Shown here: in pieces, positions 2 through 14,505 of the stretch
Position numbering within the stretch: the first letter of the stretch is position 1
Layout of the letters: the number at the start of each line of letters is the position of its first letter
Assembly: GCA_017537025.1 (NCBI GenBank)
Contig: JAFWCB010000008.1
Coordinates: forward strand, 636,022-700,021
Source of the DNA: Sediminibacterium sp.
GTDB taxonomy: Bacteria > Bacteroidota > Bacteroidia > Chitinophagales > Chitinophagaceae
DNA length: 64,000 bases
Reading direction: 5' to 3'
Made by a program: the position numbers and the translations under genes
The notes under the pieces: generated by a model
The model's database searches: none
What the model was told of the DNA's origin: nothing
Seen by the model: only the letters and a program-made list of their open reading frames with translations

Positions 2-1138
2 GAAGATTTTAAGAAAGCACAAGGAGCTGCTGAACCAGATATTCGTTCCGTTGAAGATCATGTGTTTGCACCTACAGCTATTAAAGAAGAAAAAGGACAA
101 AGAGTACCCAAAGGTGCTGAGAAAGTGATGATGGTAGATGCTGCCCTACATGCCATTGATGAAATTTTAGATGAATATCCTGAAGCCATATTATACGGAC
201 AAGATGTAGGAGGAAGGCTAGGGGGTGTTTTCCGGGAAGCGGCAACCCTGGCAGAAAAATATGGTGAGAACAGAGTGTTTAATACAGCCATTCAAGAGGC
301 TTATATAGTTGGATCTACTGTTGGCTTGAGCGCTATGGGTATGAAGCCGATCGTAGAAATCCAGTTTGCCGATTATATCTATCCCGGCTTAAATCAGTTG
401 GTTACCGAAGTAGCCAAATCTTGTTATTTATCTAACGGTAAGTTTCCCGTACAAATGGTATTGCGTGTACCTGTAGGTGCGTATGGGGGTGGGGGGCCAT
501 ATCATAGTGGCAGTATCGAAAGTACCTTATTATCTATCAAGGGTATTAAAGTAGTATATCCTTCCAATGCCGCAGACATGAAGGGTTTGATGAAAGCCGC
601 CTTCCTCGATCCTAATCCTGTTATTATGCTTGAGCATAAAGGATTGTACTGGAGTAAAGTGCCCGGTACCGATGATGCCAAAACCATCGAACCGGCAAAA
701 GATTATATATTGCCCCTAGGTAAAGCCAACGTAGTATTACAAACAGAAATGGAGCGGGTACGTAAGGGAGAAACTATTACAGTGGTTACTTATGGCATGG
801 GAGTATATTGGGCAAAAGCGGCTGCAGAGCGTTATCCCGGACAAGTAGAAATAGTAGACCTCCGATCTTTGTATCCATTAGATGAAGAAACCATCTTTAA
901 TTCGGTAAAGCGCCATGGTAAAGTATTAGTACTAACCGAAGAGCAACAAAATAATTCATTTGCCGAGGCTTTATCGCTTCGTATATCTAACGATTGCTAC
1001 CATTTTTTAGATGCCAAGGTTGAAGTAATGGGAGCTAAAAACCTGCCGGCTATTCCTATCAATGTGGCATTAGAAACCGCCATGCTCCCCACTGCCACCA
1101 AAGTGGCTGAACGCATCGGGAAATTGTTGGCGTATTAG
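2..1138 (+). CDS. 2-oxoacid dehydrogenase E1, beta part (5' truncated by window edge)
   Basis: This is the C-terminal part of a thiamine-diphosphate-dependent E1 component of a 2-oxoacid dehydrogenase (pyruvate or branched-chain type). The frame is open from base 2, so the gene starts before the window; the GTG at 62 is internal. The visible protein has the transketolase-type pyrimidine-binding domain (AIQEAYIVGSTVGLSAMG, FADYIYPGLNQLV) and the C-terminal transketolase domain (VTYGMGVYWAKAAAERYPG, EEQQNNSFAEALS). The residues before the beta domain look like a linker, so this is probably an alpha-beta fusion like the full-length paralogue at 19074-21464. The substrate cannot be told from sequence. 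A tRNA locus follows 43 bases after the stop. Confidence 0.9.
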   Translation, partial: EDFKKAQGAAEPDIRSVEDHVFAPTAIKEEKGQRVPKGAEKVMMVDAALHAIDEILDEYPEAILYGQDVGGRLGGVFREAATLAEKYGENRVFNTAIQEAYIVGSTVGLSAMGMKPIVEIQFADYIYPGLNQLVTEVAKSCYLSNGKFPVQMVLRVPVGAYGGGGPYHSGSIESTLLSIKGIKVVYPSNAADMKGLMKAAFLDPNPVIMLEHKGLYWSKVPGTDDAKTIEPAKDYILPLGKANVVLQTEMERVRKGETITVVTYGMGVYWAKAAAERYPGQVEIVDLRSLYPLDEETIFNSVKRHGKVLVLTEEQQNNSFAEALSLRISNDCYHFLDAKVEVMGAKNLPAIPINVALETAMLPTATKVAERIGKLLAY

Positions 1139-1171: not shown

Positions 1172-1181
1172 CACCCCAATT

Positions 1182-1253
1182 GGCGAGGTAGCTCAGTTGG
1201 TTAGAGCACAGGATTCATAACCGCCTAAGGCGGACTGGGTTCAAGACATATTT
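1182..1253 (+). pseudogene. Degenerate tRNA-Met copy 1 (5' half intact, 3' half replaced)
   Basis: The first 41 bases equal the intact tRNA at 1326, including the D arm and the CAT anticodon. The variable region and T arm are then replaced by a short palindrome (CCGCC TAA GGCGG), followed by a T-loop-like GGGTTCAAG and then ACATATTT instead of the 3' acceptor strand. No acceptor stem can form, so this should not be an aminoacylatable tRNA. The unit is 72 bases and is repeated directly downstream. Confidence 0.75.
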
Positions 1254-1325
1254 GGCGAGGTAGCTCAGTTGGTTAGAGCACAGGATTCATATCCGCCTAA
1301 GGCGGACTGGGTTCAAGACATATTT
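1254..1325 (+). pseudogene. Degenerate tRNA-Met copy 2
   Basis: A second 72-base unit, identical to the one at 1182 except that CATAACC becomes CATATCC just after the anticodon. It carries the same CCGCCTAAGGCGG hairpin and truncated T arm and abuts the intact tRNA gene at 1326. Near-identity suggests recent tandem duplication; an assembly artefact cannot be excluded from sequence alone. Confidence 0.75.
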
Positions 1326-1399
1326 GGCGAGGTAGCTCAGTTGGTTAGAGCACAGGATTCATAACCCTGAGGTCTCGGGTTCAAGTCCCGATCTCGCTA
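1326..1399 (+). tRNA. tRNA-Met (anticodon CAT)
   Basis: A full cloverleaf can be drawn: acceptor GGCGAGG with UCUCGCU (two G-U pairs), D arm GCTC/GAGC, anticodon CAT at 1360-1362 in loop TTCATAA, and T arm with loop GTTCAAG. Discriminator A is at 1399. CCA is not encoded: C follows, then ATG. The anticodon stem has an A-C mismatch next to the loop. CAT could also denote a lysidine-modified tRNA-Ile, but the body looks like elongator Met. The 3' 45 bases are repeated at 14111-14155. Confidence 0.9.
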
Positions 1400-1400
1400 C
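1356..1400 (+). repeat. Left 45-bp direct repeat (putative attachment site inside tRNA-Met)
   Basis: This is the tRNA 3' half from the anticodon stem to the base after the discriminator. It is identical base for base to 14111-14155 (46 bases if the following A is counted). Tyrosine recombinases commonly use the 3' half of tRNA genes as attachment sites and leave this arrangement: an intact tRNA on the promoter side and a 3' fragment at the far end. Confidence 0.7.
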
Positions 1401-1409
1401 ATGAAAATC

Positions 1410-1441
1410 AAGGACTTACGTTAAATCGTGAGTCCTTTTTT
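1410..1441 (+). terminator. Rho-independent terminator after tRNA-Met
   Basis: AAGGACTTACG (1410-1420) pairs with CGTGAGTCCTT (1427-1437) around loop TTAAAT, with one T-G wobble, followed by a run of T. It would end the tRNA transcript. It belongs to the island side of the left repeat and differs in sequence from the terminator behind the right repeat. Confidence 0.75.
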
Positions 1442-1615
1442 GTGTGAGGAAAAAGGCATTTTATATTGAAACCCTTGTTATTATTGGATTTGATTGCGTG
1501 AGGAAGAGAAATATATTATTCTTTGTTTAATCGAAAAACGTCCAATTTTAGTAAGAAGCGATCCTTTTTATTTGACATAAAATTTCTATTCAACATCTAA
1601 AACATAAAATCTGAA

Positions 1616-1651
1616 TTATAAAAAAATTAAACTTTATAATTTTTTTTATAA
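1616..1651 (+). promoter_or_regulatory. AT-only inverted repeat in the hydrogenase promoter region
   Basis: TTATAAAAAAATT (1616-1628) is mirrored by AATTTTTTTTATAA (1638-1651) around a 9-base centre, 34 bases before the small-subunit ATG. The 244 bases from the tRNA terminator to that gene hold no ORF. AATATTTG at about 1653-1660 matches TAnnTTTG at 7 of 8 positions and could be the -7 element. Part of the symmetry may simply reflect A/T tracts. Confidence 0.35.
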
Positions 1652-1685
1652 AATATTTGCTAAATTCAACTTCAAATTAAACATT

Positions 1686-2642
1686 ATGGCAAATGTACTA
1701 TGGCTTCAAGGAGGTGCTTGCAGTGGGAACACAATGTCCTTTTTGAATGCACAAGAACCAACTGTTGTGGAATTGATTGTCGATTTTGGCATTAATATTC
1801 TATGGCATCCTACGGTGGGTTTGGAGCTGGGTGACCAGGTGGGTAATCTCATGAAAAAGTGTATAAGTGGCGAAACACCTTTGGACATTTTTGTTTTTGA
1901 GGGATCAATTATTGAGGGCCCTCATGGGACAGGCACAATGAACTACTTTGCTGAGCGACCAATGAAAGATTGGGTTCGTGAACTGGCAGGAGTAGCACAG
2001 TTTGTCGTAGCTGTCGGAGATTGCGCTACTTATGGTGGAATTCCGGCAGTCGATCCAAATCCAAGTGAGTCCACAGGTATGCAGTTTTTGAAAAAGAACA
2101 AAGGTGGGTTTTTGGGTGCAAACTTTGTTGCAAAATCAGGCCTTCCTGTTATCAATATTCCAGGTTGTCCATGTCACCCTGATTGGGTTTCTCAAATTTT
2201 AGTTGCAATTGCTACAGGAAGAGCTGGTGATATTTTGATAGATGAATATCATCGTCCTAAAACATTCTTCTCAACTTATGTGCAATCTGGTTGTACAAAA
2301 GTGAATGGCTTTGCAAATAAAATCGAAGGTGGCTTTGGAAAGAAAGGTGGATGTTTATTCTATGAGGTAGGCTGTAGAGGACCAATGACTAAAGCTAGTT
2401 GTAATAATATATTATGGAATCGTTGGTCTTCTAAAACAAGAGCTAATCACCCATGTTTAGGTTGTACTGAACCAGGATTCCCTCACCATGATTTAAAGCC
2501 AGGTTCAGTATTTAATACCATGAAATATTTGGGTGTATTTCCAAAGGAAGTTCCTGATGGAGACTCAAAATTGGGTTATTACGTAAAAGCTGGTGTTGAA
2601 AAAGTATTTTCCAACAGCAAAGTGGGGTCTTATTCAAAATAA
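1686..2642 (+). CDS. hupS: Group 2a-like uptake [NiFe] hydrogenase small subunit
   Basis: Iron-sulfur subunit that carries electrons away from the NiFe site. At 318 residues with no Tat signal and no C-terminal membrane anchor, it fits cytosolic group 2 enzymes, and the MANVLWLQGGACSGNT start is typical of cyanobacterial and actinobacterial HupS. Proximal-cluster positions are C12, C113 (GDCATYGG) and C161 (PGCPCHPDW); the usual fourth Cys is Asn15. Distal-site residues are C203, C223 and C230, with Gln200 where the usual His would fall. Medial-site residues are C239, C257 and C260 (HPCLGCTEPGFP). It is first in the cluster, 26 bases before the large subunit. Subgroup assignment is by eye. 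Confidence 0.95.
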   Translation: MANVLWLQGGACSGNTMSFLNAQEPTVVELIVDFGINILWHPTVGLELGDQVGNLMKKCISGETPLDIFVFEGSIIEGPHGTGTMNYFAERPMKDWVRELAGVAQFVVAVGDCATYGGIPAVDPNPSESTGMQFLKKNKGGFLGANFVAKSGLPVINIPGCPCHPDWVSQILVAIATGRAGDILIDEYHRPKTFFSTYVQSGCTKVNGFANKIEGGFGKKGGCLFYEVGCRGPMTKASCNNILWNRWSSKTRANHPCLGCTEPGFPHHDLKPGSVFNTMKYLGVFPKEVPDGDSKLGYYVKAGVEKVFSNSKVGSYSK

Positions 2643-2668
2643 ACTTACAACCTTAAAAAAATCATCAA

Positions 2669-4264
2669 ATGAGTGCATCTGAAAAAATTATGAACATTTC
2701 TCCTGTAGGTCGCGTTGAAGGCGATTTAGATGTTCGAGTATATATCGAAAATAATAGGGTTGTTCGTGCCCATACTCAAGCTGCAATGTTTAGAGGCTTT
2801 GAAAAAATCATGCAAGGAAAAGACTATCAATCTGGATTGATTGTCACACCTCGTATTTGTGGTATTTGTGGAGGATCACATCTTTATTGTGCATCTTCAG
2901 CATTAGATACTGCAATGCAAACAACTTTGCCTTCAAATGCTCTATTATTAAGAGCAATTGGACAAATTACTGAAACCATTCAAAGTATACCAAGATGGTT
3001 TTATGCTATTTTTGCAACTGATTTATGTAACAAAAAATTTGCTCATCATCCTTCTTATCAAGAAGTATGCAGACGTTGGGCAGCCTATGCAGGTAAACAT
3101 TTTCAAATTGGTGTTACTGCATCAGGTAGACCAGTGGAAGTTTATGCTCTGTTTGGTGGTCAGTGGCCTCATTCTTCATACATGGTTCCAGGTGGTGTAA
3201 TGTGTTCCCCAACACTTTCTGATATAACTAGAGCATATTCTATTTTGAATCAATTTAGGAATGATTGGTTAGAGCCAATATTTCTTGGATGCTCTGTTGA
3301 ACGATACATGCAAATTAAAACATGGGATGATTTACTAGCTTGGGTTGACGAGAAAGAAAGTCACAAGAATTCTGATATGGGTTTCTTCATTAAAGTTGCT
3401 CAAGAATTTGGATTAGATACTTTCGGACAAGGTGTTGGTAAGTATATGGCTTTTGGTACTTATATACACAAAGATCTTTGGAACCAACCAAAAATTGAAA
3501 CAAGAAATAATGCATTGATTTCTCCTTCTGGTTTTTGGGATGGATTTAATTTCCATGAATTAGATCATTTAAAGGTTACTGAACACGTGAAACACAGCTG
3601 GTATGAGGATTATCCTGCAGCACATCCTTGGGATGAGCCAATGCCAAATCCTCTAAAATCTACCAATCTACACCATACAGATTTTGATGGTAAATATTCA
3701 TGGGCTAAAGCACCTAGATACGATGATCATGCAGTAGAAGTTGGTCCATTAGCTAGAGTAATCATGGCTGGTAATCCAAATAATAAATCACACCAAATCC
3801 AAGATCCACTTTTCTTGGATATTATGAAAGTTAAAGGACCGTCTGTGTTTACTCGTACTTTAGCACGTTTACATGAAGAGGCAAAACTATTTAGTTTAGT
3901 GCATGAATGGCTTGGACAAATCAACCTTAATGATGAATTTTACATCAAGCCAACTCAAAGAGATGGACGTGGTTGGGGTGCAACCGAGGCTGCACGTGGT
4001 GCATTAGCACATTGGGTTGAAATTGAAGATGGTAAAATCAAAAATTATCAAGTAATGGCTCCAACAACTTGGAATGTTGGCCCAAATGATGAAAAAGGAA
4101 GAGCAGGAGCAATTGAAGCTGCATTAACTGGAATTGAGATCGCTGATCCAAATGATCCGGTAGAGGTTGGACTTGTTGCACGTTCATTTGACTCATGTCT
4201 AGTATGTACTGTTCATGCATTAGATAAAAATGGTAAGGACTTAACTAAGTTCAGAATTAATTAG
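2669..4264 (+). CDS. hupL: Group 2a-like [NiFe] hydrogenase large (catalytic) subunit
   Basis: Catalytic subunit that holds the NiFe(CN)2CO site and oxidises H2. The N-terminal L1 motif RICGICGGSH places C64 and C67. The C-terminal L2 motif FDSCLVCTVH places C510, C513 and H516, so all four Ni-ligand cysteines are present. Fifteen residues follow H516, the usual length of the tail removed by the maturation protease after Ni insertion; the protease gene is next. The length (531) and the IQSIPRWFYAIFATDL region resemble cyanobacterial HupL. No signal or anchor is present. Confidence 0.95.
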   Translation: MSASEKIMNISPVGRVEGDLDVRVYIENNRVVRAHTQAAMFRGFEKIMQGKDYQSGLIVTPRICGICGGSHLYCASSALDTAMQTTLPSNALLLRAIGQITETIQSIPRWFYAIFATDLCNKKFAHHPSYQEVCRRWAAYAGKHFQIGVTASGRPVEVYALFGGQWPHSSYMVPGGVMCSPTLSDITRAYSILNQFRNDWLEPIFLGCSVERYMQIKTWDDLLAWVDEKESHKNSDMGFFIKVAQEFGLDTFGQGVGKYMAFGTYIHKDLWNQPKIETRNNALISPSGFWDGFNFHELDHLKVTEHVKHSWYEDYPAAHPWDEPMPNPLKSTNLHHTDFDGKYSWAKAPRYDDHAVEVGPLARVIMAGNPNNKSHQIQDPLFLDIMKVKGPSVFTRTLARLHEEAKLFSLVHEWLGQINLNDEFYIKPTQRDGRGWGATEAARGALAHWVEIEDGKIKNYQVMAPTTWNVGPNDEKGRAGAIEAALTGIEIADPNDPVEVGLVARSFDSCLVCTVHALDKNGKDLTKFRIN

Positions 4265-4282
4265 ATATTAGTCAGAAATTAA

Positions 4283-4317
4283 ATTAAGTATGGGTTACAT
4301 CCCATACTTAATTTTTT
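4283..4317 (+). terminator. Hairpin with T-run between structural and maturation genes
   Basis: ATTAAGTATGGG (4283-4294) pairs perfectly with CCCATACTTAAT (4301-4312) around TTACAT, and the right arm runs into T residues. This is a strong intrinsic terminator or 3' processing stem between the large subunit and the protease gene, and could make structural transcripts exceed maturation transcripts. A second, mutually exclusive 9-bp pairing, ATGGGTTAC (4290-4298) with GTAACCCAT (4318-4326), overlaps it. Confidence 0.7.
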
Positions 4318-4347
4318 GTAACCCATAAGAAGTTGATCAATTAAAAC

Positions 4348-4833
4348 GTGAAAATGAAATGTGCAATACTTGGTTTTGGAAACCCTGTACGAGGCGATGA
4401 TGCTGTAGGTTGCCAAGTTATAGAAAAACTCCACGAAAAGTTCAATAATGAAAAAGATCATATCGGTTTATTTGATATGGGTACAAATGGATTTGAAATT
4501 TTATTTACACTTTCAGGATACAATAAAATTATAGTTGTTGATGCAGTCCTTGATAATCAAAATAAAATTGGTCAAATATACAAAGTTCCTGCAGAAGAAG
4601 TTTTGATGGCTCCTGAAGAAGATCCTCTTCTTTTTTTACACGGAATGAAATGGAATCAGGGGTTAAGCTATGCAAAAAAAATTATGGGTGATTCCTATCC
4701 AACTGATGTGGATGCTTATTTAATAAGTATTTCTAATATTAGTTTCATTGAAGCAATGCAGCCAGAGGTTGAAAAAGCAAGGGATGAAGTTATTGAGTTA
4801 ATTTTTAAAGAGGTAGTATCGTGGTTGAATTAA
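4348..4833 (+). CDS. hupD: Hydrogenase maturation endopeptidase (HyaD/HybD/HupD family)
   Basis: Processing protease that cleaves the C-terminal tail of the large subunit once nickel is in place. The 161-residue length is normal. LGFGNPVRGDDAVG near the N-terminus supplies the first metal-sensing acidic residue (D18, where HybD has Glu). D65 in VVDAV and H98 in FLHGMKW match the other two Ni-contact positions of HybD. The stop overlaps the next start by 13 bases, so translation may be coupled. It follows the 4283-4326 hairpin region. Confidence 0.93.
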   Translation: MKMKCAILGFGNPVRGDDAVGCQVIEKLHEKFNNEKDHIGLFDMGTNGFEILFTLSGYNKIIVVDAVLDNQNKIGQIYKVPAEEVLMAPEEDPLLFLHGMKWNQGLSYAKKIMGDSYPTDVDAYLISISNISFIEAMQPEVEKARDEVIELIFKEVVSWLN

Positions 4834-5132
4834 TTAATCATTACTTGCATATTGACGAATCCGTTTTCTCAAATTGTCTGAATAGTTCAGAAAATGTTTT
4901 GTATGTTTATTATCCAAGAGAATGCAAACTTTTAATTACACCTGTAAGCAATGAATTTTTTAAGAATATCCATAAATGTAACGGTACATTTTTAAAACAG
5001 AAAAATACAAAGGGCGTTCGGGTCTTTCAAATTGCTAACATATTACTTGATAACGAAATTTCTTTAGTAGACAGATCATTGTCATATGAAGCTGATGCTC
5101 TTACATCAATTTTAACCGTTAAGTTTAATTGA
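4821..5132 (+). CDS. Hypothetical protein of hydrogenase cluster (103 aa)
   Basis: I do not recognise the family. The frame begins at a GTG overlapping the protease end and stops one base before the next ATG, so it is clearly operonic. The predicted protein is soluble, with no signal peptide or membrane segment. It looks beta-rich, with three Cys (in SNCLN, RECKL, HKCNG) too scattered for an obvious iron-sulfur motif. Its place between protease and hyp genes suggests a role in assembly or electron transfer, which is inference. A dedicated redox partner is otherwise missing from the cluster. Confidence 0.75.
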   Translation: MVELINHYLHIDESVFSNCLNSSENVLYVYYPRECKLLITPVSNEFFKNIHKCNGTFLKQKNTKGVRVFQIANILLDNEISLVDRSLSYEADALTSILTVKFN

Positions 5133-5133
5133 T

Positions 5134-6588
5134 ATGAAAATAAATATTGAGGAAAATAACAGTTTTTTAAAATCTAAATTAATTGGAATTAATTTTGAGG
5201 AAGTGGACAATGATTTTTGTGATGTAAAAATCACGCCACTTGGGTTATCAATATTTCCTGATTGGAATCTAAGAAGAGTTCCTTTTATCTATTCTGATAG
5301 AATAGATGTAAAGTATTGGTCAGAAGTGTGTAAGATCATAGATGGAGCATTAGCTAGCGATGAAGAGTTACTTAAAAATTATCCATTGATTAATCGTATT
5401 TCACAATGTGTACAAACAGTATTTGATGACGGGGTATTATATACAAATATATTTGAAGATATTATTCCACAAACACAATTTGAGGAATATGCAATACAAC
5501 ACAATAAAGCGGTTTTACTTCACTTTAATTATAGCAAATTAAATACTGATATTGAGGAAATAAATGAGCAATTTAAGCACGCAGCTTATTTAGCACCAGA
5601 TGCTTATTGGATGTCTTTTACCCATTATCTCAATTTTGTTTTTTTACTTGATCATGATAGGATAGATGAAGCATATGATCTTGTTATGAAAATCGAAAGG
5701 AGAATCGATATAAATTCAGTAAGATCAATAGTGCTACTTACCATATTGAAGTATTTATCATTACAAGAAGATGTATCAAATTATCAAAGTATGGTACTAC
5801 AAATTGCCGATTTATTAACTAGTATGAAAGATTTACCTGAATGTCAAATAGATGGTTTAATTGCACTTTCTCAGTTTCAAGAAACACAACAAAATATAAA
5901 TGAAGCTGTTGCAAGTTTCGAAAAAGCTCTTTCTATTGCTAAATCAAGCAATTCAAAACAACTTTCATATATCTATGCTTCATTAGGTGATCTTCAGTTG
6001 AAGGCTGCACAATTTGGCGATATTTCTCAATATAGTTTTGCCCAACACTCATATCAGCAGGCATTAAAAACAATTCTCAGAGAAAACGATGCTCAACGAT
6101 ATGGACTATGTCAAATGAATCTTGGTATCATATACGCAGAAATGCCAATACGTGACGTTAAAAGACATGTATATGCTGGCCTTGCTCAAACAGCATTTAC
6201 AGAAGCAATGCAAGTTTTTAATAAGTTTGATGATCCATATCAATATGCTATGGTGTGTACAAACTTTGCAAATGCAATGCTAAGATTGCTCCCTGATATT
6301 GATAAAGAAAGATTTGATAAAATAAGTTTTTATTTGTTTGAGGCTTTGAATATCAGAAAATCAAATCAATTCCCAGAAGAGCGAGCAATTACAATTTGTA
6401 CTCTTTTAAACTTGTATTTCCATCGGATAGAAACAGCTGAGGAAATAGACTATCAATGGCTTAATGAGATGAAGCTTATGTCAGATGAAATTATTTCACT
6501 TACTTCAAATACATTTCTAGTTGACAATGCACATAATGCTATTAAGTTCGTTGATAATACAAAATCACAATTAAGTAGTAATGCATGA
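5134..6588 (+). CDS. TPR-like repeat protein of hydrogenase cluster
   Basis: A 484-residue soluble protein rich in helical repeats. Tetratricopeptide-like units are visible from about residue 240 (EAVASFEKALSIAKSSN, SYIYASLGDLQL, YSFAQHSYQQALKTI, AQTAFTEAMQVFNKF, FYLFEALNIRKS). The N-terminal 150 residues are less regular. TPR arrays usually act as protein-protein scaffolds, so this may hold a maturation intermediate or attach the enzyme to a partner. It starts one base after the preceding gene, and its last codons overlap hypA by 8 bases. Confidence 0.8.
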   Translation: MKINIEENNSFLKSKLIGINFEEVDNDFCDVKITPLGLSIFPDWNLRRVPFIYSDRIDVKYWSEVCKIIDGALASDEELLKNYPLINRISQCVQTVFDDGVLYTNIFEDIIPQTQFEEYAIQHNKAVLLHFNYSKLNTDIEEINEQFKHAAYLAPDAYWMSFTHYLNFVFLLDHDRIDEAYDLVMKIERRIDINSVRSIVLLTILKYLSLQEDVSNYQSMVLQIADLLTSMKDLPECQIDGLIALSQFQETQQNINEAVASFEKALSIAKSSNSKQLSYIYASLGDLQLKAAQFGDISQYSFAQHSYQQALKTILRENDAQRYGLCQMNLGIIYAEMPIRDVKRHVYAGLAQTAFTEAMQVFNKFDDPYQYAMVCTNFANAMLRLLPDIDKERFDKISFYLFEALNIRKSNQFPEERAITICTLLNLYFHRIETAEEIDYQWLNEMKLMSDEIISLTSNTFLVDNAHNAIKFVDNTKSQLSSNA

Positions 6589-6943
6589 GATGTCAATCAT
6601 ACAACAAGTAGTTAATTCACTAAACAGTGAACTAAGTGCAGAAGAAAAATATCAAGTAAGTAATATAATTTTGCATTTGGGTGAATTGAGTAATGTACAA
6701 CCTATTTTACTAGAAAATGCATTCAAGGCCTACCAAGAGGCGTCTGCTGATTATGTACACACACGGTTAACAGTTTTACAAATTCCTGTGGTCATTCATT
6801 GTGATCAATGTGGTGAAGATTCACGAGTAAAGCAATATGTTTTTAAGTGCAATAATTGTGGAAAGCCTTCAACTAACCTTATAAGTGGTGAGGAGTTGCT
6901 CATACACAAAATAGAATTTTTTGATCCTTTTAAACTTCAATAA
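6581..6943 (+). CDS. hypA: Hydrogenase nickel incorporation protein HypA
   Basis: Nickel metallochaperone working with HypB to load Ni into the large-subunit precursor. The MHEMSI start provides the Ni-binding His2. The zinc site is C74 and C77 (CDQC) with C90 and C93 (CNNC), the usual two CxxC pairs. The 120-residue length is typical. It overlaps the TPR gene by 8 bases and lies 6 bases before hypB, as expected for co-translated partners. Confidence 0.95.
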   Translation: MHEMSIIQQVVNSLNSELSAEEKYQVSNIILHLGELSNVQPILLENAFKAYQEASADYVHTRLTVLQIPVVIHCDQCGEDSRVKQYVFKCNNCGKPSTNLISGEELLIHKIEFFDPFKLQ

Positions 6944-6949
6944 AAAAAT

Positions 6950-7663
6950 ATGATACAGTTATCTCAACAACGAACATCAAAAAATAAGCGTGGGACAATT
7001 AATTGTGATAATACTACTAGGCACTTGTTACAAGCAAATGATTTTGTAGCAGAAGCAATAAGAAATAAAATGCTTCAATCTAAAACACTTGTAATTAATA
7101 TTGTTTCTTCTGCAGGAAGTGGTAAAACAACATTAATGATAGAAACAGGAAAAAGACTCAAAGAAAAATATTCAATTAAGGTCCTCGTTGGGGATCTTGA
7201 AACTGAACGCGATGCTGATAGAATAAAAGCAGCTGGTGTTGATGCACTTCAAATTGTCACAGGTGGCATTTGTCATTTAGAAGCACAAATGGTATGGCAA
7301 GCAATGGAGACAATGGATCTTACTGGAACCGATTTACTTTTTATCGAAAATGTTGGTAATTTAGTTTGTCCAGCTTCTTTTGATTTGGGGGAAGATTATA
7401 GAGTTACACTTATTGCAAGTACAGAAGGAGACGATAAGCCCAAAAAATATCCAAGAATGTTTTTAACCTCAGAACTGATGATTGTTTCGAAGGCCGATTT
7501 ACTTCCTTATGTCCCTTTTTCGGTTGAAGAAGTTACGAAAGATGCTAGAGATATTAATCATGAATTAGAAGTTATTACAATTTCCTCAATAAAAGGAGAT
7601 GGAATTGAAGAATGGTGTCAATGGTTAGAAGAAAGAATTGCACTAAAAAGACAGATTGTTTGA
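6950..7663 (+). CDS. hypB: Hydrogenase/urease nickel incorporation GTPase HypB
   Basis: GTPase that drives nickel delivery together with HypA. The G1 P-loop SSAGSGKTT is at about residues 53-61, followed by GDLETERDADR. The metal-binding residues of the G domain are seen in GGICHL (C108, H109) and ENVGNLVC (C140). The His-rich nickel-storage stretch and the N-terminal CxxCGC motif of some HypB proteins are absent, so storage may depend on the permease at the end of the cluster. Length is 237 residues. Confidence 0.95.
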   Translation: MIQLSQQRTSKNKRGTINCDNTTRHLLQANDFVAEAIRNKMLQSKTLVINIVSSAGSGKTTLMIETGKRLKEKYSIKVLVGDLETERDADRIKAAGVDALQIVTGGICHLEAQMVWQAMETMDLTGTDLLFIENVGNLVCPASFDLGEDYRVTLIASTEGDDKPKKYPRMFLTSELMIVSKADLLPYVPFSVEEVTKDARDINHELEVITISSIKGDGIEEWCQWLEERIALKRQIV

Positions 7664-7666
7664 TAG

Positions 7667-9919
7667 ATGGTTAAAACATGGTCAATAGTAGTTGAAGGTT
7701 TGGTCCAAGGTGTTGGATTCAGACCTCATTTACTTAAAAAATCAATGTTAAATAATATTCCTATTGAAATAGGAAATACTGCAAAAGGTGTTGAAGTTAT
7801 TCTCAATGCAGATACAGAAATTTCTGCTAATGAATACATGCATATCTTGACTGTCGACTTGCCAGCAAAAGTTAGAATTGAAAAGTGGGCTATTTTTAAA
7901 AGTGAGAATCGTTTAATATATAACAGTAAGATTATTTATCCTCAGTATGAGGTAAATAATCTTTTCATAACGCCTGATTTCTCCTGGTGTAGCTCTTGCA
8001 AAAAAGAATTTGATGATTTTTCTAATGTGAGGCATGACTTTTCATTTATTAATTGTACCCAATGTGGTCCTCGATATAGTGTTATGAAAAAACTACCTTT
8101 TGAAAGAGAGAACACTACCCATGAAATAGAAATGTGTGTGAGTTGTTCACAAGAGTATAGTGATCTTAACAATTCTCGAGCACTTTCACAATTGAATTCA
8201 TGTAAGAACTGTTTTCCTTCCTCTCATTTGTATTTTGATAATGAGAATAAAATTGTTAAGGAACAATTAGCAAAGCTATCTTTACATATTACTAATGGTA
8301 AAGTAGTTGCTGTTCAAGGTATTGCTGGTTTTCTTTTGCTTCTAGATTATAAGAACAATCAAGCTATAACATATTTGAGAGAAAAGAAAAATCGTCCAAA
8401 AAAGCCATTTGCAATAATGTTTGCTACAATTGAACAAATCAAGAATAATTTTGAGTGTAGTGATATTGAAATAAAATTATTGAGTGATACTTCAGCACCA
8501 ATAGTATTACTATCTCCAAAAATGAAATTCAAAGAAAGGGTTTCATTAGAAAATATTTCTGGACCTTCTCAATTGGTTGGTGTTATGCTTGCACCATCTG
8601 CCTATTTATATCAATTATGTATTTCAAATGACGGTGGTTTAATTGCTACAAGTGCTAATAATCAAGGCTTGCCGCTTTCTTATTCAATGCCAACTGCTAA
8701 TCATTTATTGAGTTCAATTGCTGTTGAAGCTTGGTATTTTGATAGAGAAATCTTTTTCCCTCAAGATGATTCTGTAACAATGGTAACACCACTTAATCAA
8801 TTACCAATAGTAATTAGAAGATCTAGAGGTTTATCACCAAGTTTAACAAAAGTGAAGAATTACTATTCTACCCAAATAGTTTTAGCGCTAGGAGCCGAAA
8901 TAAAATCTACATTTACATTGGCATTTGAGAGTCAGATTTTGGTTTCACCATATCAAGGAAATATTGCAAACTTAGATAATTTTGAACGGTTTTCTGAGAA
9001 TATTAATAAGCAATTAACACTGTGTTCTGTAAAACCAGATGTTATTTTAATTGATCGCCACCCTTTGTTCCAGCATAACGAGTTTGTTGATTCATTTAAA
9101 CATGGTTCTCTTTTGGTAAAATCAGTACAACATCATGAGGCTCATGCTTGTGCTATTTTAGGGGAATCACATCTGTTTGAAAGTGATGGTAAGGTAATGT
9201 GTATAATTATGGATGGAATGGGTTTTGAGGATGAACAATTTATTAGAGGTGCTGCATGTTATATCTATGAAAAGGGACGACTTATCGAATTGGAGAAATT
9301 TCCAACTTTCCGTTATCTCTTTAATGATAAAATGTCTTTTGAACCTCAGCTTTCTTTAGTTAGCATTATGGATGGAGAAGTTTTTGATGGAATGAAATTT
9401 ACTTTTGAAGAATCCTATTTACACAATATTCAAACTTTAAAAGCACGTCAACCATTGACTAATAGTATAGGAAGGGTATTTGACGCATTTGCTGCTTTAA
9501 TAGGATTTGATTCAGTAAATAGTTTTGAAGGCGAGGCTGTGATTTGGCTAGACCAATTTGCAAGAAAAGGACTACTAGAGTATGGTTATGAAGGGCCATC
9601 TTATCAGTGGAATCGTTTATCTTGGAGAGATCTGTTCAGAAGATGTTGGATTGATATACAAAATGGGCTTTCTCCTTCAACAATTGTATATAGTTTTATT
9701 AATACTATTGCAATCGATGTTGTAAACAACGTTTTGGATCAAAAAATAAAACATCTAGCAGTGAGTGGAGGTGTATTTCAGAATGCTGTATTGGTTGATT
9801 TGATTCAGTCACATTGTCAAAGTAATAGTATTTGTTTACATCTACACCAAGAACTTTCACCCAATGATGAAAATATAAGTTTTGGACAATATATGCACTA
9901 TCTTCATATAACCTCATAA
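7667..9919 (+). CDS. hypF: Carbamoyltransferase HypF
   Basis: Makes the carbamoyl group that becomes the cyanide ligands of the active-site iron. Domains run in order: acylphosphatase with GLVQGVGFRP (residues 11-20); two zinc-finger units with CxxC pairs at 108/111, 130/133, 157/160 and 179/182; a YrdC-like domain from about residue 200 (KNRPKKPFAIMF); and a Kae1-like transferase domain with QHHEAHACAI. At 750 residues it is full length. The second finger deviates from the common HAQPxxCPxCG pattern but keeps its Cys. Three bases separate it from hypB. Confidence 0.95.
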   Translation: MVKTWSIVVEGLVQGVGFRPHLLKKSMLNNIPIEIGNTAKGVEVILNADTEISANEYMHILTVDLPAKVRIEKWAIFKSENRLIYNSKIIYPQYEVNNLFITPDFSWCSSCKKEFDDFSNVRHDFSFINCTQCGPRYSVMKKLPFERENTTHEIEMCVSCSQEYSDLNNSRALSQLNSCKNCFPSSHLYFDNENKIVKEQLAKLSLHITNGKVVAVQGIAGFLLLLDYKNNQAITYLREKKNRPKKPFAIMFATIEQIKNNFECSDIEIKLLSDTSAPIVLLSPKMKFKERVSLENISGPSQLVGVMLAPSAYLYQLCISNDGGLIATSANNQGLPLSYSMPTANHLLSSIAVEAWYFDREIFFPQDDSVTMVTPLNQLPIVIRRSRGLSPSLTKVKNYYSTQIVLALGAEIKSTFTLAFESQILVSPYQGNIANLDNFERFSENINKQLTLCSVKPDVILIDRHPLFQHNEFVDSFKHGSLLVKSVQHHEAHACAILGESHLFESDGKVMCIIMDGMGFEDEQFIRGAACYIYEKGRLIELEKFPTFRYLFNDKMSFEPQLSLVSIMDGEVFDGMKFTFEESYLHNIQTLKARQPLTNSIGRVFDAFAALIGFDSVNSFEGEAVIWLDQFARKGLLEYGYEGPSYQWNRLSWRDLFRRCWIDIQNGLSPSTIVYSFINTIAIDVVNNVLDQKIKHLAVSGGVFQNAVLVDLIQSHCQSNSICLHLHQELSPNDENISFGQYMHYLHITS

Positions 9920-9929
9920 ATAAATAATT

Positions 9930-10178
9930 ATGTGTTTAGCAATTCCTGGTAAAGTTGAAAGTATAGAATTTATGTATGATAATTCAGTAAGAATGGCCAA
10001 AGTATCATTTGGTGGAATTATAAAACAGGCGAGTCTTGAAATGCTTCCTCAAGCAGAGGTTGGTGACTATGTACTCGTGCATGTTGGTGTTGCCATTAGT
10101 AGAGTTGATGAAGAAGAAGCACAGAAAGTATTTGAATATTTAAGAGAGGCAGGTGAATTAGATGAATTAAATCATTAA
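9930..10178 (+). CDS. hypC: Hydrogenase assembly chaperone HypC
   Basis: Small chaperone that passes the Fe(CN)2CO unit from the HypD complex to the large subunit. The MCLAIPGKV start gives the essential Cys2 after Met removal, and the length (82) is standard. The stop is two bases before the hypD start. A single hypC-type gene in the cluster fits a single hydrogenase. Confidence 0.95.
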   Translation: MCLAIPGKVESIEFMYDNSVRMAKVSFGGIIKQASLEMLPQAEVGDYVLVHVGVAISRVDEEEAQKVFEYLREAGELDELNH

Positions 10179-10180
10179 AC

Positions 10181-11272
10181 ATGAAATACGTAACTGAGTA
10201 TAGAGACGCAGATATAGTTCATAGTTATCTGGCTTGTATAAAGTCAATTGTAACAAAGCCTTGGACTATTATGGAAGTATGTGGAGGACAAACACATAGT
10301 CTTGTTAAACATGGTTTGTTAGATATATTACCACCTGAGATTACTATAGTACATGGCCCTGGTTGTCCAGTTTGTGTAACACCACAGTCCTTAATAAATC
10401 AAGCTGTAAGCCTTTCTATTGATCATAAAGTTATTTTATGTTCGTTCGGTGATATGCTTCGTGTACCTGGATCTAAGATGAGTTTGTTGGAAGCAAAGGC
10501 AAGAGGAGCAGATGTTCGAATTTTATATTCTCCACTTGAGGCTGTAGAGATAGCGAAAAAATTTCCAGATAAACAGGTTGTTTTCTTTGCTGTAGGATTT
10601 GAAACTACAGCCCCAGCAAATGCTTTGTCTGTATTGCATGCATATCGCGCAGGTCTTAAAAATTATTCTATTCTAACTGCGCATGTATTAGTTCCTCCTG
10701 CTATTAGGGCTATTATGGATGACCCACATACAAGAGTAAATGGATTTCTTGCTGCAGGTCATGTTTGTACAATCATGGGAAATAGCGAATATTATCCAAT
10801 TGCTGAAGAGTATAAAATTCCATTAGTGGTTACAGGATTTGAACCTGTAGATTTAATGCAAGGATTGTATCTAACCATACAGCAATTAGAGGAAGGAAAA
10901 TTTGAGGTAATCAATCAGTATAGTAGAGTTGTAAAAGAGGAAGGTAATCCAGAAGCAAGAGCAGTCATCAACAAAGTGTTTGAGGTTTCCCATCGAAATT
11001 GGAGAGGGATAGGAGTGATTCCGCGAAGTGGATATGCACTTAGAGAAGAGTTTGCTTTGTATGATGCTGAAAAAAAATTTGGTTTTTTATCTCAAGATCA
11101 AGAAAATGTAAATGGTTGTATTGCAGGATCAATATTAAAAGGCTTAAAAAAGCCTAAAGATTGTCCTCATTTTAATAAAACATGTACACCTCTAAACCCA
11201 TTGGGAGCACCAATGGTTTCTACAGAAGGTGCATGTGCTGCTTATTATCATTTTTCTGGAATAATAGAATAA
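10181..11272 (+). CDS. hypD: Hydrogenase maturation factor HypD
   Basis: Iron-sulfur scaffold on which the Fe(CN)2CO unit is built with HypC and HypE. Key motifs are present: MEVCGGQTHS (C34), HGPGCPVCV (C62, C65), GFETTAPANA, and a Cys-rich C-terminal region (CPHFNKTC, STEGACAAYY) for the 4Fe-4S cluster. The length of 363 is typical. The order hypC-hypD-hypE is the classic one. Confidence 0.96.
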   Translation: MKYVTEYRDADIVHSYLACIKSIVTKPWTIMEVCGGQTHSLVKHGLLDILPPEITIVHGPGCPVCVTPQSLINQAVSLSIDHKVILCSFGDMLRVPGSKMSLLEAKARGADVRILYSPLEAVEIAKKFPDKQVVFFAVGFETTAPANALSVLHAYRAGLKNYSILTAHVLVPPAIRAIMDDPHTRVNGFLAAGHVCTIMGNSEYYPIAEEYKIPLVVTGFEPVDLMQGLYLTIQQLEEGKFEVINQYSRVVKEEGNPEARAVINKVFEVSHRNWRGIGVIPRSGYALREEFALYDAEKKFGFLSQDQENVNGCIAGSILKGLKKPKDCPHFNKTCTPLNPLGAPMVSTEGACAAYYHFSGIIE

Positions 11273-11281
11273 AATTAAATT

Positions 11282-12319
11282 ATGCATTTACAATGTCCGA
11301 TTCCAAAAACAGATTTTGATGTCATAACCTTAGGTCATGGTAGTGGTGGTCAACTTACATCTCGATTACTTGATACTTTTGTTATTAATCAACTTTCAAA
11401 TCCAGAATTAGAAAAACGTCTTGATGGAGCAATACTTCAACTGGATGGGAATTTAGCTTTTTCAACTGATAGCTATGTTGTTTCTCCTATATTTTTTCCT
11501 GGAGGTAATATAGGTGATTTGGCAATTAATGGAACAGTAAATGATTTAGCTATGTGCGGTGCTTTACCCAAATACCTATCTCTTTCGTTTATTATTGAAG
11601 AAGGTTTACCTGTAAGTGAATTTTGGGAAGTTATCCAATCTATAAAGCAAGCTGCATCAAAAGCGAATATTTCTATTGTAACAGGAGATACTAAGGTTGT
11701 TGAGAAGGGGAAGGGAGATAAATTATTTATCAATACATCTGGTATAGGCAGATTACATCCAAAGGCTCAAATTGATGTAAACAGGGTATCTGCTGGAGAT
11801 GTAATAATTGTAAGTAATAAAATTGCACATCATGGTATGGCTATAATGAGTGTAAGGGAGGGATTGATATTTGAAAGTAACATACTCACAGACAGCAAAC
11901 CATTGGCCCATGTATGTATGTCATGTTTAGATAAATTTGGAGATAGTATTAAATTATTTCGGGATCCAACAAGAGGTGGTGTTGCAACTACCCTTACTGA
12001 AATTGCTGAATCGTGTGGGAAAGGGATTTTTATTCAAGAAAAAAATATCAGTTTGGATCCTTCGGTAGAAGGAGCTTGTGAGATGCTAGGTCTGGATCCT
12101 TTATATGTTGCAAATGAGGGAGTTTTTATTGTAATTGTAGATGCTTTAAAGGCAAATGAGTTTTTGGAATTTTTGAGTCAGAAGGAAGAAACATCTTTTG
12201 CATTTAAACTTGGAGAAGTAACTGATTCTTATGAAGGGAAAGTGATTTTAGAATCAAAAATGAAAGGTAAAAGAGTGTTGACTAAATTAATAGGCGATCA
12301 ACTTCCAAGAATTTGTTGA
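11282..12319 (+). CDS. hypE: Hydrogenase maturation factor HypE
   Basis: Dehydrates the carbamoyl group, received on its C-terminal Cys from HypF, to thiocyanate and hands cyanide to HypD. The C-terminus ends in LPRIC, the signature with the reactive terminal Cys345. AIRS/PurM-like ATP-binding elements are seen (LGHGSGGQLT, FSTDSYVV, DPTRGGVATTL). The length of 345 is normal. The stop overlaps the NHL gene by 7 bases, tying that gene to the operon. Confidence 0.96.
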   Translation: MHLQCPIPKTDFDVITLGHGSGGQLTSRLLDTFVINQLSNPELEKRLDGAILQLDGNLAFSTDSYVVSPIFFPGGNIGDLAINGTVNDLAMCGALPKYLSLSFIIEEGLPVSEFWEVIQSIKQAASKANISIVTGDTKVVEKGKGDKLFINTSGIGRLHPKAQIDVNRVSAGDVIIVSNKIAHHGMAIMSVREGLIFESNILTDSKPLAHVCMSCLDKFGDSIKLFRDPTRGGVATTLTEIAESCGKGIFIQEKNISLDPSVEGACEMLGLDPLYVANEGVFIVIVDALKANEFLEFLSQKEETSFAFKLGEVTDSYEGKVILESKMKGKRVLTKLIGDQLPRIC

Positions 12320-13362
12320 TGTTAAAAAATCCTGAACATATATTTTTAGGAAGTGATCAATCTCCCTTCCTTGCACCTAGAGGAATTTGTGTACATAATA
12401 ATTGTCTACTTGTATCCGATACTGCTCAAAATAGAATATTTATTTGGAAAAATATTCCAACTACAAGTTATGCTGAACCTGATATTATTTTAGGTAATCA
12501 AGAAGCAGATGTTTCTGAAATGAATTTTAAATATCCAAGTGGCATTTGGACAAATGGAGACAAGTTAGTAGTTGCTGATGCTTGGAACCATCGCGTTTTA
12601 ATTTGGCATAAATTCCCGACAACTAATCATACACTACCTGATGTAGTAGTAGGTCAGTTAGATTTTAATTCAGATTTACCTAATCAATTGGGAGTTAATA
12701 ATCCTCCAAGTTCATCTAGTTTATATTGGCCATATGGTGTTTATAGCGATGGAGTATCATTGTGGATTGCAGATACTGGTAATAGAAGAATATTATTTTA
12801 TAAAAATATACCTTTGCATAATGGTAGTTCAGCAGATGAAGTAATTGGGCAAGATAATATGGAATCAAGGGATTTGAATCCAAATTTTTCAACATGGCCA
12901 TATTCAATAAAATTAGATGTAAATGGAGGTATGATTGTTACTGATACCCAATATTTTCGAGTTTTATATTGGAAGTCTTGGAAAAATGCTATAAAAGGCG
13001 AACCAAATGCGATATGGGGTCAACAAGATTTAGAATCAAATGGACAAAATCGGCATTACTTAAAGCCTACTGCTTATTCACTAAGTTGGAATTATGATGC
13101 ATTAATACATGAGAAACATAAGTTGGTCTTCATTGCAGATACCGGAAACAGTAGAATATTGAGTTATCCTTTTGACTTAAATTATGGTGAATCTGCAACA
13201 ACTATTTATGGACAAAAAGATTTTGATTCTATTGGAGAAAATAAAGAAAGTATAATGGGACTTGATGGACATTTATATTGGCCATTTAGCATTGCAGTTG
13301 ATGACGAAAGATTGTTTGTATGTGAAACAGGCAATAATCGTATATTTATATACAAAATATAA
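12313..13362 (+). CDS. NHL-repeat beta-propeller protein of hydrogenase cluster
   Basis: A 349-residue protein with six recognisable NHL-type blades, each ending in a variant of DTGNxRIxxY/W: DTAQNRIFIW, DAWNHRVLIW, DTGNRRILFY, DTQYFRVLYW, DTGNSRILSY, ETGNNRIFIY. Between blades a second repeat, GQxDxxS, recurs five times. There is no signal peptide, so it is probably cytosolic with the hydrogenase. Beta-propellers bind proteins or ligands, so a scaffold or partner role is likely but unproven. The ATG overlaps the hypE end; the nickel-permease gene follows after two bases. Confidence 0.85.
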   Translation: MLMLKNPEHIFLGSDQSPFLAPRGICVHNNCLLVSDTAQNRIFIWKNIPTTSYAEPDIILGNQEADVSEMNFKYPSGIWTNGDKLVVADAWNHRVLIWHKFPTTNHTLPDVVVGQLDFNSDLPNQLGVNNPPSSSSLYWPYGVYSDGVSLWIADTGNRRILFYKNIPLHNGSSADEVIGQDNMESRDLNPNFSTWPYSIKLDVNGGMIVTDTQYFRVLYWKSWKNAIKGEPNAIWGQQDLESNGQNRHYLKPTAYSLSWNYDALIHEKHKLVFIADTGNSRILSYPFDLNYGESATTIYGQKDFDSIGENKESIMGLDGHLYWPFSIAVDDERLFVCETGNNRIFIYKI

Positions 13363-13364
13363 TC

Positions 13365-13976
13365 ATGCAAGATCTGATTTTATTTATAATCGCATTTTCA
13401 GTTGGATTTGTTCATACTTTTGAAGCAGATCATTTAGCGGCAGTCACAAATTTAGTAACGCGCAATATTGGATTTTCAGTTACTGCAAAAGATGGATTTT
13501 ACTGGGGTATTGGACATTCTGCAACGATTTGGTTCATAGGTTTGGTTATCTTAGTTTTCAAATATAATATTTCTAATACTTCTTTTTCTAAACTAGAAAG
13601 TATTGTTGGTTTAATGTTAATAGTGCTGGGTGTAGTTAGAATGATTCATTTTAAAAAAGGGCATCAACATACTAAATTTAGTTCGCCAAAGTTGGCATTT
13701 GGAGTTGGTGTGGTGCATGGATTAGCTGGAAGTGGTGCAGTAGTTGCCGCTGCAGTAACAAAAACCTCTAATATTAGCTCAGGATTAATCTATTTGTTAT
13801 TGTTTGGTTTAGGAAGCATAGTTGGGATGTTTTCTGTCTCTGCAGGATTGAGTTGGATGCTTCAAAAACTCAATTTCAAAATTACAACTCTAGTAACCCT
13901 TTTTACTTTTTTTTCTTCACTAATTTGTATTGTTTACGGCAGCGTAATTATTTATAATTCTTTGTTTACAATTTAA
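13365..13976 (+). CDS. Nickel/cobalt permease-like membrane protein
   Basis: A 203-residue inner-membrane protein with about six hydrophobic segments. The first helix contains HTFEADHLAAV, which fits the HX4DH nickel-binding signature of NiCoT/NicO/UreH-type permeases. GIGHSATIWFIG in the second helix and GVVHGLAGSGAV further on are also typical. Nickel import for the HypA/HypB route is the natural role, and it is the last gene of the cluster. Specificity for Ni over Co is inferred from context only. Confidence 0.85.
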   Translation: MQDLILFIIAFSVGFVHTFEADHLAAVTNLVTRNIGFSVTAKDGFYWGIGHSATIWFIGLVILVFKYNISNTSFSKLESIVGLMLIVLGVVRMIHFKKGHQHTKFSSPKLAFGVGVVHGLAGSGAVVAAAVTKTSNISSGLIYLLLFGLGSIVGMFSVSAGLSWMLQKLNFKITTLVTLFTFFSSLICIVYGSVIIYNSLFTI

Positions 13977-14110
13977 TCTGAGTTATATAAAATAATAACA
14001 TTTTCCCTTGCGTGAGGTACATCTCACAAAAAATGTTCACTTATACACTAATTCAATCTAAAGTGAACATTTTATATACTGATTATCAATAGGTTAATCT
14101 ATTCAAGATA
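13977..14110. other. Right end of island: hairpin-bearing non-coding segment
   Basis: No ORF. Two inverted repeats stand out: GTGAG GTACAT CTCAC at about 14011-14026, and a perfect 13-base repeat AAAATGTTCACTT (14030-14042) / AAGTGAACATTTT (14061-14073) with an 18-base spacer. The second could end the hydrogenase transcript or be a protein-binding site near the recombination end. It lies 38 bases from the right direct repeat. Confidence 0.5.
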
Positions 14111-14155
14111 GATTCATAACCCTGAGGTCTCGGGTTCAAGTCCCGATCTCGCTAC
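14111..14155 (+). repeat. Right 45-bp direct repeat: displaced tRNA-Met 3' half
   Basis: Identical to 1356-1400. The 5' half of a tRNA is absent here (ATTCAAGATA precedes it), so this is not a gene. It is followed directly by a tRNA-style terminator, as if it were the original 3' end of the locus before the insertion. It is read as the second attachment site of the hydrogenase island. Confidence 0.75.
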
Positions 14156-14186
14156 AAAGCCCCGATAGTATCGTCGGGGCTTTTTT
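14156..14186 (+). terminator. Rho-independent terminator behind the displaced tRNA 3' half
   Basis: AAAGCCCCGA (14156-14165) pairs with TCGGGGCTTT (14174-14183), followed by a T-run. It probably terminated the tRNA-Met transcript before the island arrived and now follows the orphan 3' fragment. Confidence 0.8.
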
Positions 14187-14211: not shown

Positions 14212-14505
14212 ATGCATCCGTACATCATCAACGCATCTGTTCAAATCGTTCCCATTGGTACTAAAAAACATCCTTACGTTTGGGTAGATGAAGCAATCAG
14301 CATTATTCAGCAATCCGGGTTAAAGTATACCGTTGGGGCTTTTGGTACCGATATTGAAGGCAGTTATAAAGAAGTAATGAAACTCATTGAAGATATAAAT
14401 GAGTATTTGTATCAACAAGCTTGCGAAGAATGGATAGTAAATTGTCAAATTCAGTTTAGAGCAGGATCCGATATTACCATTGAGGAAAAAACCAACAAAT
14501 ATTAG
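14212..14505 (+). CDS. Thiamine-binding / MTH1187-YkoF family protein
   Basis: A 97-residue soluble protein of the MTH1187/YkoF-like (DUF77) family, small ferredoxin-like folds that bind thiamine or related ligands. Family features are ASVQIVPIG near the start, AISIIQQSGLKYTVGAFGT and EGSYKEVMKLIEDINE. The ATG at 14212 was chosen because the frame upstream runs into the terminator. In the putative pre-island order it would have been the neighbour of tRNA-Met and the E1 gene, whose cofactor is thiamine diphosphate; that link is suggestive only. Confidence 0.75.
   Translation: MHPYIINASVQIVPIGTKKHPYVWVDEAISIIQQSGLKYTVGAFGTDIEGSYKEVMKLIEDINEYLYQQACEEWIVNCQIQFRAGSDITIEEKTNKY

Follow-up and report, generated by a model that had tools for sequence, protein, structure and literature searches.

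A 64,000-nt stretch of a Sediminibacterium sp. genome (contig JAFWCB010000008.1, positions 636,022 to 700,021; hereafter the window) carries a 12.7-kb hydrogenase gene cluster, the island, directly downstream of a tRNA-Met gene whose 3' half recurs at the far end of the cluster. A first-pass annotation had proposed that the island entered by site-specific integration into the tRNA gene, as a self-contained kit for hydrogen oxidation. The features of the island and its ends are as follows (open reading frame, ORF; position weight matrix, PWM).

1326..1400 (+): intact tRNA-Met(cat), from ARAGORN; its 3' half was probably brought by the element
1356..1401 (+): left copy of an exact 46-nt repeat, the putative attL core
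1401..1510 (+): element left end, with a terminator hairpin at 1410-1437 and TGYGTGAGG at 1441 and 1495 (candidate arm-type sites)
1686..2642 (+): hydrogenase small subunit, Huc/group 2a-like (PDB 7uur/7utd, E = 8e-143 and 1.3e-142; next family 9e-35)
2669..4264 (+): hydrogenase large subunit, Huc/group 2a-like (PDB 7uus/7utd, E ~1e-186; next 2e-63)
4348..4833 (+): hydrogenase maturation protease (TIGR00072, above cut-off)
4821..5132 (+): 103-aa protein of no family, known by its place only (tblastn match in 66 of 80 named loci)
5134..6588 (+): 484-aa TPR-like protein, likewise known by its place (PF13424, below cut-off; tblastn match in 74 of 80 named loci)
6581..6943 (+): HypA (TIGR00100, 61.9 bits, cut-off 88.1)
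6950..7663 (+): HypB (TIGR00073, above cut-off)
7667..9919 (+): HypF (Pfam HypF domains)
9930..10178 (+): HypC (PF01455)
10181..11272 (+): HypD (PF01924)
11282..12319 (+): HypE (AIRS domains, PF00586 and PF02769)
12313..13362 (+): NHL-repeat protein (PF01436)
13365..13976 (+): NicO-like nickel transporter (PF03824, 26.8 bits, cut-off 27.7; TIGR00802 weak)
14009..14017 (+): third TGYGTGAGG, in the right noncoding end (motif scan)
14086..14112 (+): element right end, 27 nt before the core (PWM from 25 distinct right ends)
14111..14156 (+): right copy of the exact repeat, the putative attR core; probably the host's original tRNA 3' half
14157..14181 (+): the host's native tRNA-Met terminator, of AAAGCCCCGA type, into which the joined flanks align

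The repeat around the hydrogenase genes, claimed in the first-pass annotation, is exact over 46 nt (1356-1401 and 14111-14156, 12,755 nt apart), and 45 of these nucleotides are positions 31-75 of the intact tRNA at 1326-1400. ARAGORN detects no other tRNA in the window, and the right copy is isolated. Each copy has, as also claimed, its own and different hairpin: one at 1410-1437 on the left, and GCCCCGA..TCGGGGC directly 3' of 14156 on the right. A background scan of 29 ARAGORN tRNA records from the same genome (28 different genes, excluding the tRNA of the window), covering about 15 kb downstream of each (6.4 and 1.8 kb for two records), found self-copies of at least 17 nt at four records only, all within 0.43 kb.

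Between the repeats lie 13 consecutive ORFs, 11 of them with a family assignment, those for HypA and the NicO-like protein falling below cut-offs. Nine ORFs were scanned with NCBIfam and eight with Pfam, each with at least one of the two libraries. No recombinase family appeared among the 13, of which two have no clear family (smaller ORFs were not scanned), and on this count the cargo is, as proposed, a hydrogenase kit alone and free of an integrase. Both subunits are nearest Huc among solved structures, which fits a predicted membership in group 2a of the [NiFe]-hydrogenases. The likeness to Huc, in the part of its published description that we drew on (PDB 7utd/7uus; PMC7784904), extends to both subunits, an NHL-repeat partner and maturation genes; the island differs in that no HucE-like Rieske protein is among the families identified in it. 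Its genes stand in the order most often seen among 80 named related loci; in several of these, halves are inverted or have moved.

We compared the insertion site with the same locus in other members of the genus (genomes and loci are given by our G and L numbers). The neighbouring features, all outside the island, are:

62..1138 (+): E1-type dehydrogenase gene of the host (pdhB-like; named in the first-pass annotation), a neighbour of tRNA-Met in the genus
1180..1323 (+): two tandem 72-nt truncated tRNA-Met copies, in which the palindrome CCGCCTAAGGCGG replaces the 3' anticodon arm
14212..14505 (+): thiamine-binding protein of the right flank (TIGR00106 and PF01910, above cut-off)

Of 81 genus genomes, 28 have a pdhB-like match at E <= 1e-100, and tRNA-Met adjoins this gene at 26 of these 28 loci, our own included; the remaining two stretches show no tRNA. 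When the flanks of the island are joined in silico they restore an intact tRNA-Met, and the alignment runs unbroken to joined position 334 in G262, 330 in G255 and 329 in G011, and reaches 331 in G066 and 337 in G261, against 301, the end of the tRNA, for the unjoined window. The tRNA part would align regardless, and the informative part is the terminator: the AAAGCCCCGA..TCGGGGC terminator behind the right copy is of the same kind as that 3' of the intact tRNA-Met in G262, G255 and G011. Relatives thus hold the empty sites that integration predicts. Because the joined flanks run into the relatives' terminators, we conclude that the 3' half native to the host is the right copy, and that the left terminator arrived with the island. 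To the left of the tRNA the alignment is broken by the two truncated copies, which the relatives do not have; these directly precede the intact tRNA and are a scar of the type seen near GIY-YIG/tRNA cassettes. This tRNA has other occupants in other relatives. G031 has a GIY-YIG cassette there, G274 a histidine-kinase insert of 1.3 kb with a clean copy of 42 nt, and G073 a palindromic remnant. G256 and G036 carry the island's own left end at the tRNA; no HupL was found in them, and their contigs end there.

The left end of the island led to a family of cassettes. With window positions 1356-1510 as BLAST query, 106 of 147 genus genomes gave a match, at least 50 of them two or more, at least 33 three or more and at least 17 five or more; these counts are lower bounds, as a rule from five scored candidates per genome, and a lone tRNA counts as one. 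Copies were gathered with the window's own end as query and contigs picked for several matches, with the right end outside the query. We examined 38 stretches with arrays or recombinases: copies at E < 1e-3 are present in 28, and neighbouring copies in 20 of these, which come from 15 genomes. The neighbours share one orientation in 45 of 45 pairs, at spacings of 420 to 9,531 nt (median 2,428). Each repeat unit consists of a 27-nt right end, a tRNA core (TTCATAACCC...CTAC) and a left end with a terminator and often one to three TGCGTGAGG motifs, and 13 cassette pairs are common to different genomes, at 79-98.6% identity over at least 40% of the shorter cassette.

The cargo of these arrays was sampled rather than counted in full, by scanning 37 cassette proteins and 10 recombinase-element proteins against Pfam; three more of the scanned proteins belong to the host and are encoded next to the tRNA. 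A G289 cassette (L312 386-9916) holds a nitrous oxide (N2O)-reductase cluster, with a NosZ (TIGR04246, 929 bits, cut-off 625) that is presumably of clade II, and with cytochrome c, NosL, NosD, an ABC ATPase and a Crp-like regulator; on the left it is bounded by no more than a partial repeat copy (E = 7.5e-6). A G263 cassette (L319 5174-14057) encodes DabA together with a DabB-like protein (Proton_antipo_M) and a sulfate-permease-type protein. Further cassettes carry TonB-receptor sets, a SusD-like pair, an ABC transporter and a DinB protein. A candidate second nosZ cassette in G069 was rejected, its 672-aa ORF being a peptidase M13. None of 10 cassette proteins matched the defence systems of PADLOC, and a 21-nt piece of the left end, used to test a phage route, had no exact match in viral contigs. 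Across loci L171-L198 the T-arm of tRNA-Met diverges strongly between species of the genus and the 5' half is nearly constant, as if 3' halves had been swapped. A limited literature search, mostly by titles, returned no report of such arrays in Bacteroidota.

The ends of the island were scored with PWMs built from 37 copies in the arrays of other genomes, among them 25 distinct right ends and 9 distinct left ends. The sequence 3' of the left tRNA scores 37.6 bits and ranks first of 127,950 window positions, the next reaching 11.1; for the 27 nt in front of the right core the score is 6.5 bits (rank 37 of 127,948); and the host sequence 3' of the right copy scores -31 bits. In direct alignment the left end shares 92 and 97 of 109 positions with two ends of G289, 93 of 109 with G004, 92 of 108 with G034 and 91 of 108 with G316, which is 84-89% across these four genomes; short-type ends in L303, L315 and L316 have 64-68% identity. 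The motif TGYGTGAGG, first read from these ends, occurs three times in the 64 kb, against 0.3 expected, each time within the island's noncoding ends. The island belongs to the cassette family by its tRNA-Met 3'-half core, its left end with terminator and TGYGTGAGG, and, at moderate strength, its 27-nt right end.

Elements with these ends also encode a tyrosine recombinase, found by tracing PF00589 matches in 20 genomes. In G260, G072 and G279 the gene that follows tRNA-Met, at a distance of 82-84 nt and in convergent orientation, encodes a recombinase of 422 amino acids (aa). The second cassette of G289 encodes one of 400 aa. The recombinase element of G260 extends about 9.4 kb from the tRNA to the next full repeat, with one partial repeat inside. 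R262, R263, K290, R369 and Y400, which we take to be the catalytic residues, are invariant in all six aligned sequences, two of which (L354, L362) do not stand beside a repeat. The protein matches a PHROG integrase (E = 3.6e-19), and the best of the Xer-type models, XerD (35.6 bits) and XerA (32 bits), remain far below their cut-offs. A tyrosine recombinase of 189 aa, the size of a catalytic domain, recurs near tRNA-Ser, -Cys and -Pro (L355 7000-7635, L356 6154-6790, L358, L361); in L355 and L356 it adjoins the terminator half of a repeat.

Very probably, in our view, the hydrogenase genes form an integrative cassette that is non-autonomous, cis-mobilizable in type, and a member of a tRNA-Met-specific family served by the tyrosine recombinase of its autonomous members. 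The attachment site of the family would be the 3' half of the elongator tRNA-Met, from the anticodon loop onward. The 400-422-aa recombinase most likely joined the cassette, as a circle, to the tRNA; the 3' half that the cassette brought would have rebuilt the tRNA and displaced the host's 3' half to 14111, and the same process in relatives would stack cassettes in one orientation downstream of tRNA-Met. With no recombinase family in its 13 ORFs, the island does not have the make-up of an autonomous integrative and conjugative or integrative and mobilizable element. Its composition, as predicted, is that of a cis-mobilizable element, with putative att sites at both ends and no recombination or transfer genes recognized, two of the 13 ORFs having no clear family. 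The recombinase would act on the cassette in trans; the cassette may still be mobile, and presumably had a route between cells. The proposed site-specific integration into tRNA-Met is upheld by the empty sites, the non-tRNA ends common to other species and the tyrosine recombinase within elements that bear such ends.

Several observations weigh against this reading. No circular form or excision was seen. The recombinase scores 24.9 bits with PF00589, below the cut-off of 27.1, and no PDB chain matches its profile at E 0.01. In the island's own assembly, which is 94.7% complete, the family recombinase was not found: PF00589 gives two matches, both Xer-like, one above the XerD cut-off and one best matched by XerC, below cut-off. 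With Xer-like recombinases only in its genome, the island therefore probably depends on a recombinase in trans or on one since lost. The right end agrees with the consensus at 15 of 27 positions, counted by eye, a moderate match, and the match of the left end is partly one of ascertainment, the island's own end having been the BLAST query and contigs having been chosen for several matches. The kinase insert of G274, with its clean copy at the same tRNA, has a right end of -19 bits, which is not of the family. Finally, the island is larger, at 12.7 kb, than any measured cassette (0.42-9.5 kb).

The history of the cluster within the genus was read from HupL, matched at E <= 1e-100 in three of the 147 genomes. 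A tree was made of 84 rows, with a midpoint root that serves display alone. The sole partner of the window in it is L091 (100/99), whose contig bears the label Alphaproteobacteria. The other two HupL of the genus fall in a group (100/100) with Sediminibacterium sp. Gen4 and further rows, of which two carry the label Chitinophagaceae. One of these, HupL of G295 (at 53,356), is identical to that of Sediminibacterium sp. Gen4 (JACBFI010000013.1). As HupL occurs in three of 147 genomes and in two distant clades, its inheritance was not vertical. The contigs of L091, L106 and L115 are labelled Alphaproteobacteria, Rickettsiales and Cytophagaceae, and their HupL group with other taxa; these may be binning errors. 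G311 has the right repeat and the rest of the island, in a match to window positions 5434-17433 at 98.3%, as well as an identical left end; a search of its assembly did not find hupSL. Our first view that G311 is without the hydrogenase was wrong, since only the hupSL stretch was not found. About 50 nt upstream of hupS the G311 sequence diverges from the window into a foreign piece (L304 1-125), with which its contig ends.

Composition also departs from the host, as the first-pass annotation had asked to be checked: the island has a GC content of 33.5%, lower than the right flank (37.5%) and the 1.4 kb on its left (44%), and GC at third codon positions (GC3) is 0.21, against 0.31 in 36 host ORFs (P = 2e-6). 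Neither of the signs that had been named as speaking against integration, a relative with the cluster and no right repeat or a cluster history matching the species tree, was found: G311 keeps the right repeat and HupL departs from the species tree. We count the one-step gain of the kit as supported by the empty sites, the common ends, the GC3 shift and the HupL tree. The further suggestion, that such integration explains the patchy occurrence of group 2a enzymes across Bacteroidota, did not hold up. Among the 80 named group-2a-like loci, five have an intact tRNA in the stretch examined, and none has a duplicated tRNA end beyond a 13-nt match in L111. A model of the repeat run over the 80 loci gave one significant case, L115 (PAUP01000063.1, E = 2e-7); L134, at 0.75, is an intact tRNA-Val. 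In L115 a tRNA-Met 3' half and a terminator-like hairpin stand about 0.38 kb before hupS, with no intact tRNA, the other end lying off the stretch. A T-arm scan upstream of 94 hupS starts gave three matches (the window, L115 and the tRNA-Val), against six in 800 random stretches. With one further candidate in 80 loci, the mechanism is, on this evidence, not the general cause of group 2a patchiness.

Could another agent have left the same footprint? That a different tRNA-Met integrase inserted the island seems unlikely. Proteins with strong PF00589 matches do lie near this tRNA in other members of the genus, 0.65-2.0 kb downstream in G060, G017, G258 and G255, and in G031 two overlapping ORFs behind the thiamine-binding gene resemble, by eye, a broken integrase of this kind; however, no second part copy of tRNA-Met was found in the regions of G060, G017, G258 and G255, and the island's non-tRNA left end matches instead the elements that carry the 400-422-aa recombinase. 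Homologous recombination between tRNA-Met copies, by a single crossover with a circle or by natural transformation and with no site-specific enzyme, we hold to be quite improbable. Homologous exchange does occur here: a tract of about 2.9 kb on the left of the tRNA and reaching into it (-1500 to within tRNA-Met; the end of L076 to about window position 1385, L044) is 97-100% identical per bin to G031, most bins beyond it are at 80-90%, and the exchange ends in the tRNA. This route is opposed by the one-way arrays, the conserved non-tRNA ends and the recombinase genes within the elements.

The GIY-YIG endonuclease cassettes that stand at split tRNA copies in this order are a highly improbable agent. 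One occupies the same tRNA in G031 and two such scars lie upstream in the window, but the island's right copy is without a palindrome, the genes of the island showed no GIY-YIG family, and the ends of the island are of the kind that the recombinase family has; we dropped this agent once the array repeats showed non-tRNA ends matching the island. We give next to no credence to the idea that the ancestor of the genus had the cluster, that most species lost it and that the repeat is a by-product. G311 does share the island, but HupL is confined to the three genomes above, two of them in the distant clade with Gen4, and the window pairs with L091 alone. A tRNA-Met-specific cassette mobilized by the family recombinase is the reading we retain.

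GIY-YIG cassettes are themselves widespread at tRNA genes. Small GIY-YIG genes adjoin tRNA genes of many kinds across the order (L046-L075, L077-L090; e.g. L078 2433-3164 and L080 2756-3560), often as tandem cassettes of about 330-540 nt that end in a broken copy of that tRNA, frequently with a GC palindrome. A tRNA lies within 600 nt at 25 of the 30 GIY-YIG loci kept, against 5 of 1600 random points in hydrogenase loci; our literature search found no description of GIY-YIG genes at tRNA cassettes. In the genome of the window, GIY-YIG genes lie behind tRNA-Ser(gga) and tRNA-Lys (L077 1076-1596; L201), and short 3' tRNA copies behind the tRNAs for Thr(ggt), Ser(tga) and Leu(caa). At tRNA-Glu of G115 (L090 2261-7664), GIY-YIG copies enclose about 4.3 kb that hold two large ORFs, and another tRNA piece follows.

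The family has a named recombinase, core and both ends, and offers a concrete vehicle for the gain of hydrogen oxidation in one step, within arrays that also hold an N2O-reductase cluster and a carbon-uptake pump. Tentatively, and with slightly more doubt than confidence, we suggest that the genus keeps a common, integron-like bank of complete bioenergetic modules (H2 oxidation, N2O reduction, a DabA-type inorganic carbon pump and outer-membrane uptake) at tRNA-Met, every module being a cassette with identical types of ends and served by one recombinase in trans. If so, a whole respiratory ability could be gained or dropped by a single recombination. The patchy energy traits of freshwater Bacteroidota thereby become testable as cassette traffic at a single tRNA gene.

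Integrons hold a one-way array of exchangeable cassettes behind an anchor site, and the tRNA-Met arrays are like them in this; they differ in their often multi-gene cassettes, their tRNA core and a recombinase among whose matches at E 0.001 the integron integrase model TIGR02249, the mark of IntI, is absent. Tycheposons are elements of Prochlorococcus. Those of Methylophilaceae, in the part of the account used here (PMC10872708), resemble the recombinase-bearing relatives of the island, and these alone, in having a tyrosine recombinase, tRNA targets that include tRNA-Met, and metabolic cargo; the present system differs in its many small cassettes with a common non-tRNA end. Cis-mobilizable elements and accretion, as named in the portion consulted of work on Dehalococcoides (PMC3146451), offer the likeness of an att-bounded, recombinase-less element beside recombinase-bearing ones, mobilization in our case being presumed.

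By analogy of design, the closest counterpart would be the ssrA islands of Dehalococcoides. The sections of that account on which we rely describe respiratory cargo (vcrABC) at an RNA gene, repeats of the 3' end of the gene and tandem islands, with a conserved motif just upstream of the repeat and an integration module beside attL; 15 islands are without the module, and the authors suggest that these are possibly cis-mobilizable elements (PMC3146451). On that description the two systems share cargo type, repeats of an RNA-gene 3' end, tandem arrangement and module-less members, but the ssrA islands use tmRNA, a 20-bp repeat and a CcrB-like serine recombinase, whereas the Bacteroidota cassettes use tRNA-Met, about 45 nt and a tyrosine recombinase, and bring a terminator in their left end. 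The principle is thus already known from other systems; what is new here is a tRNA-targeted, integrase-less cassette in a system of tandem arrays.

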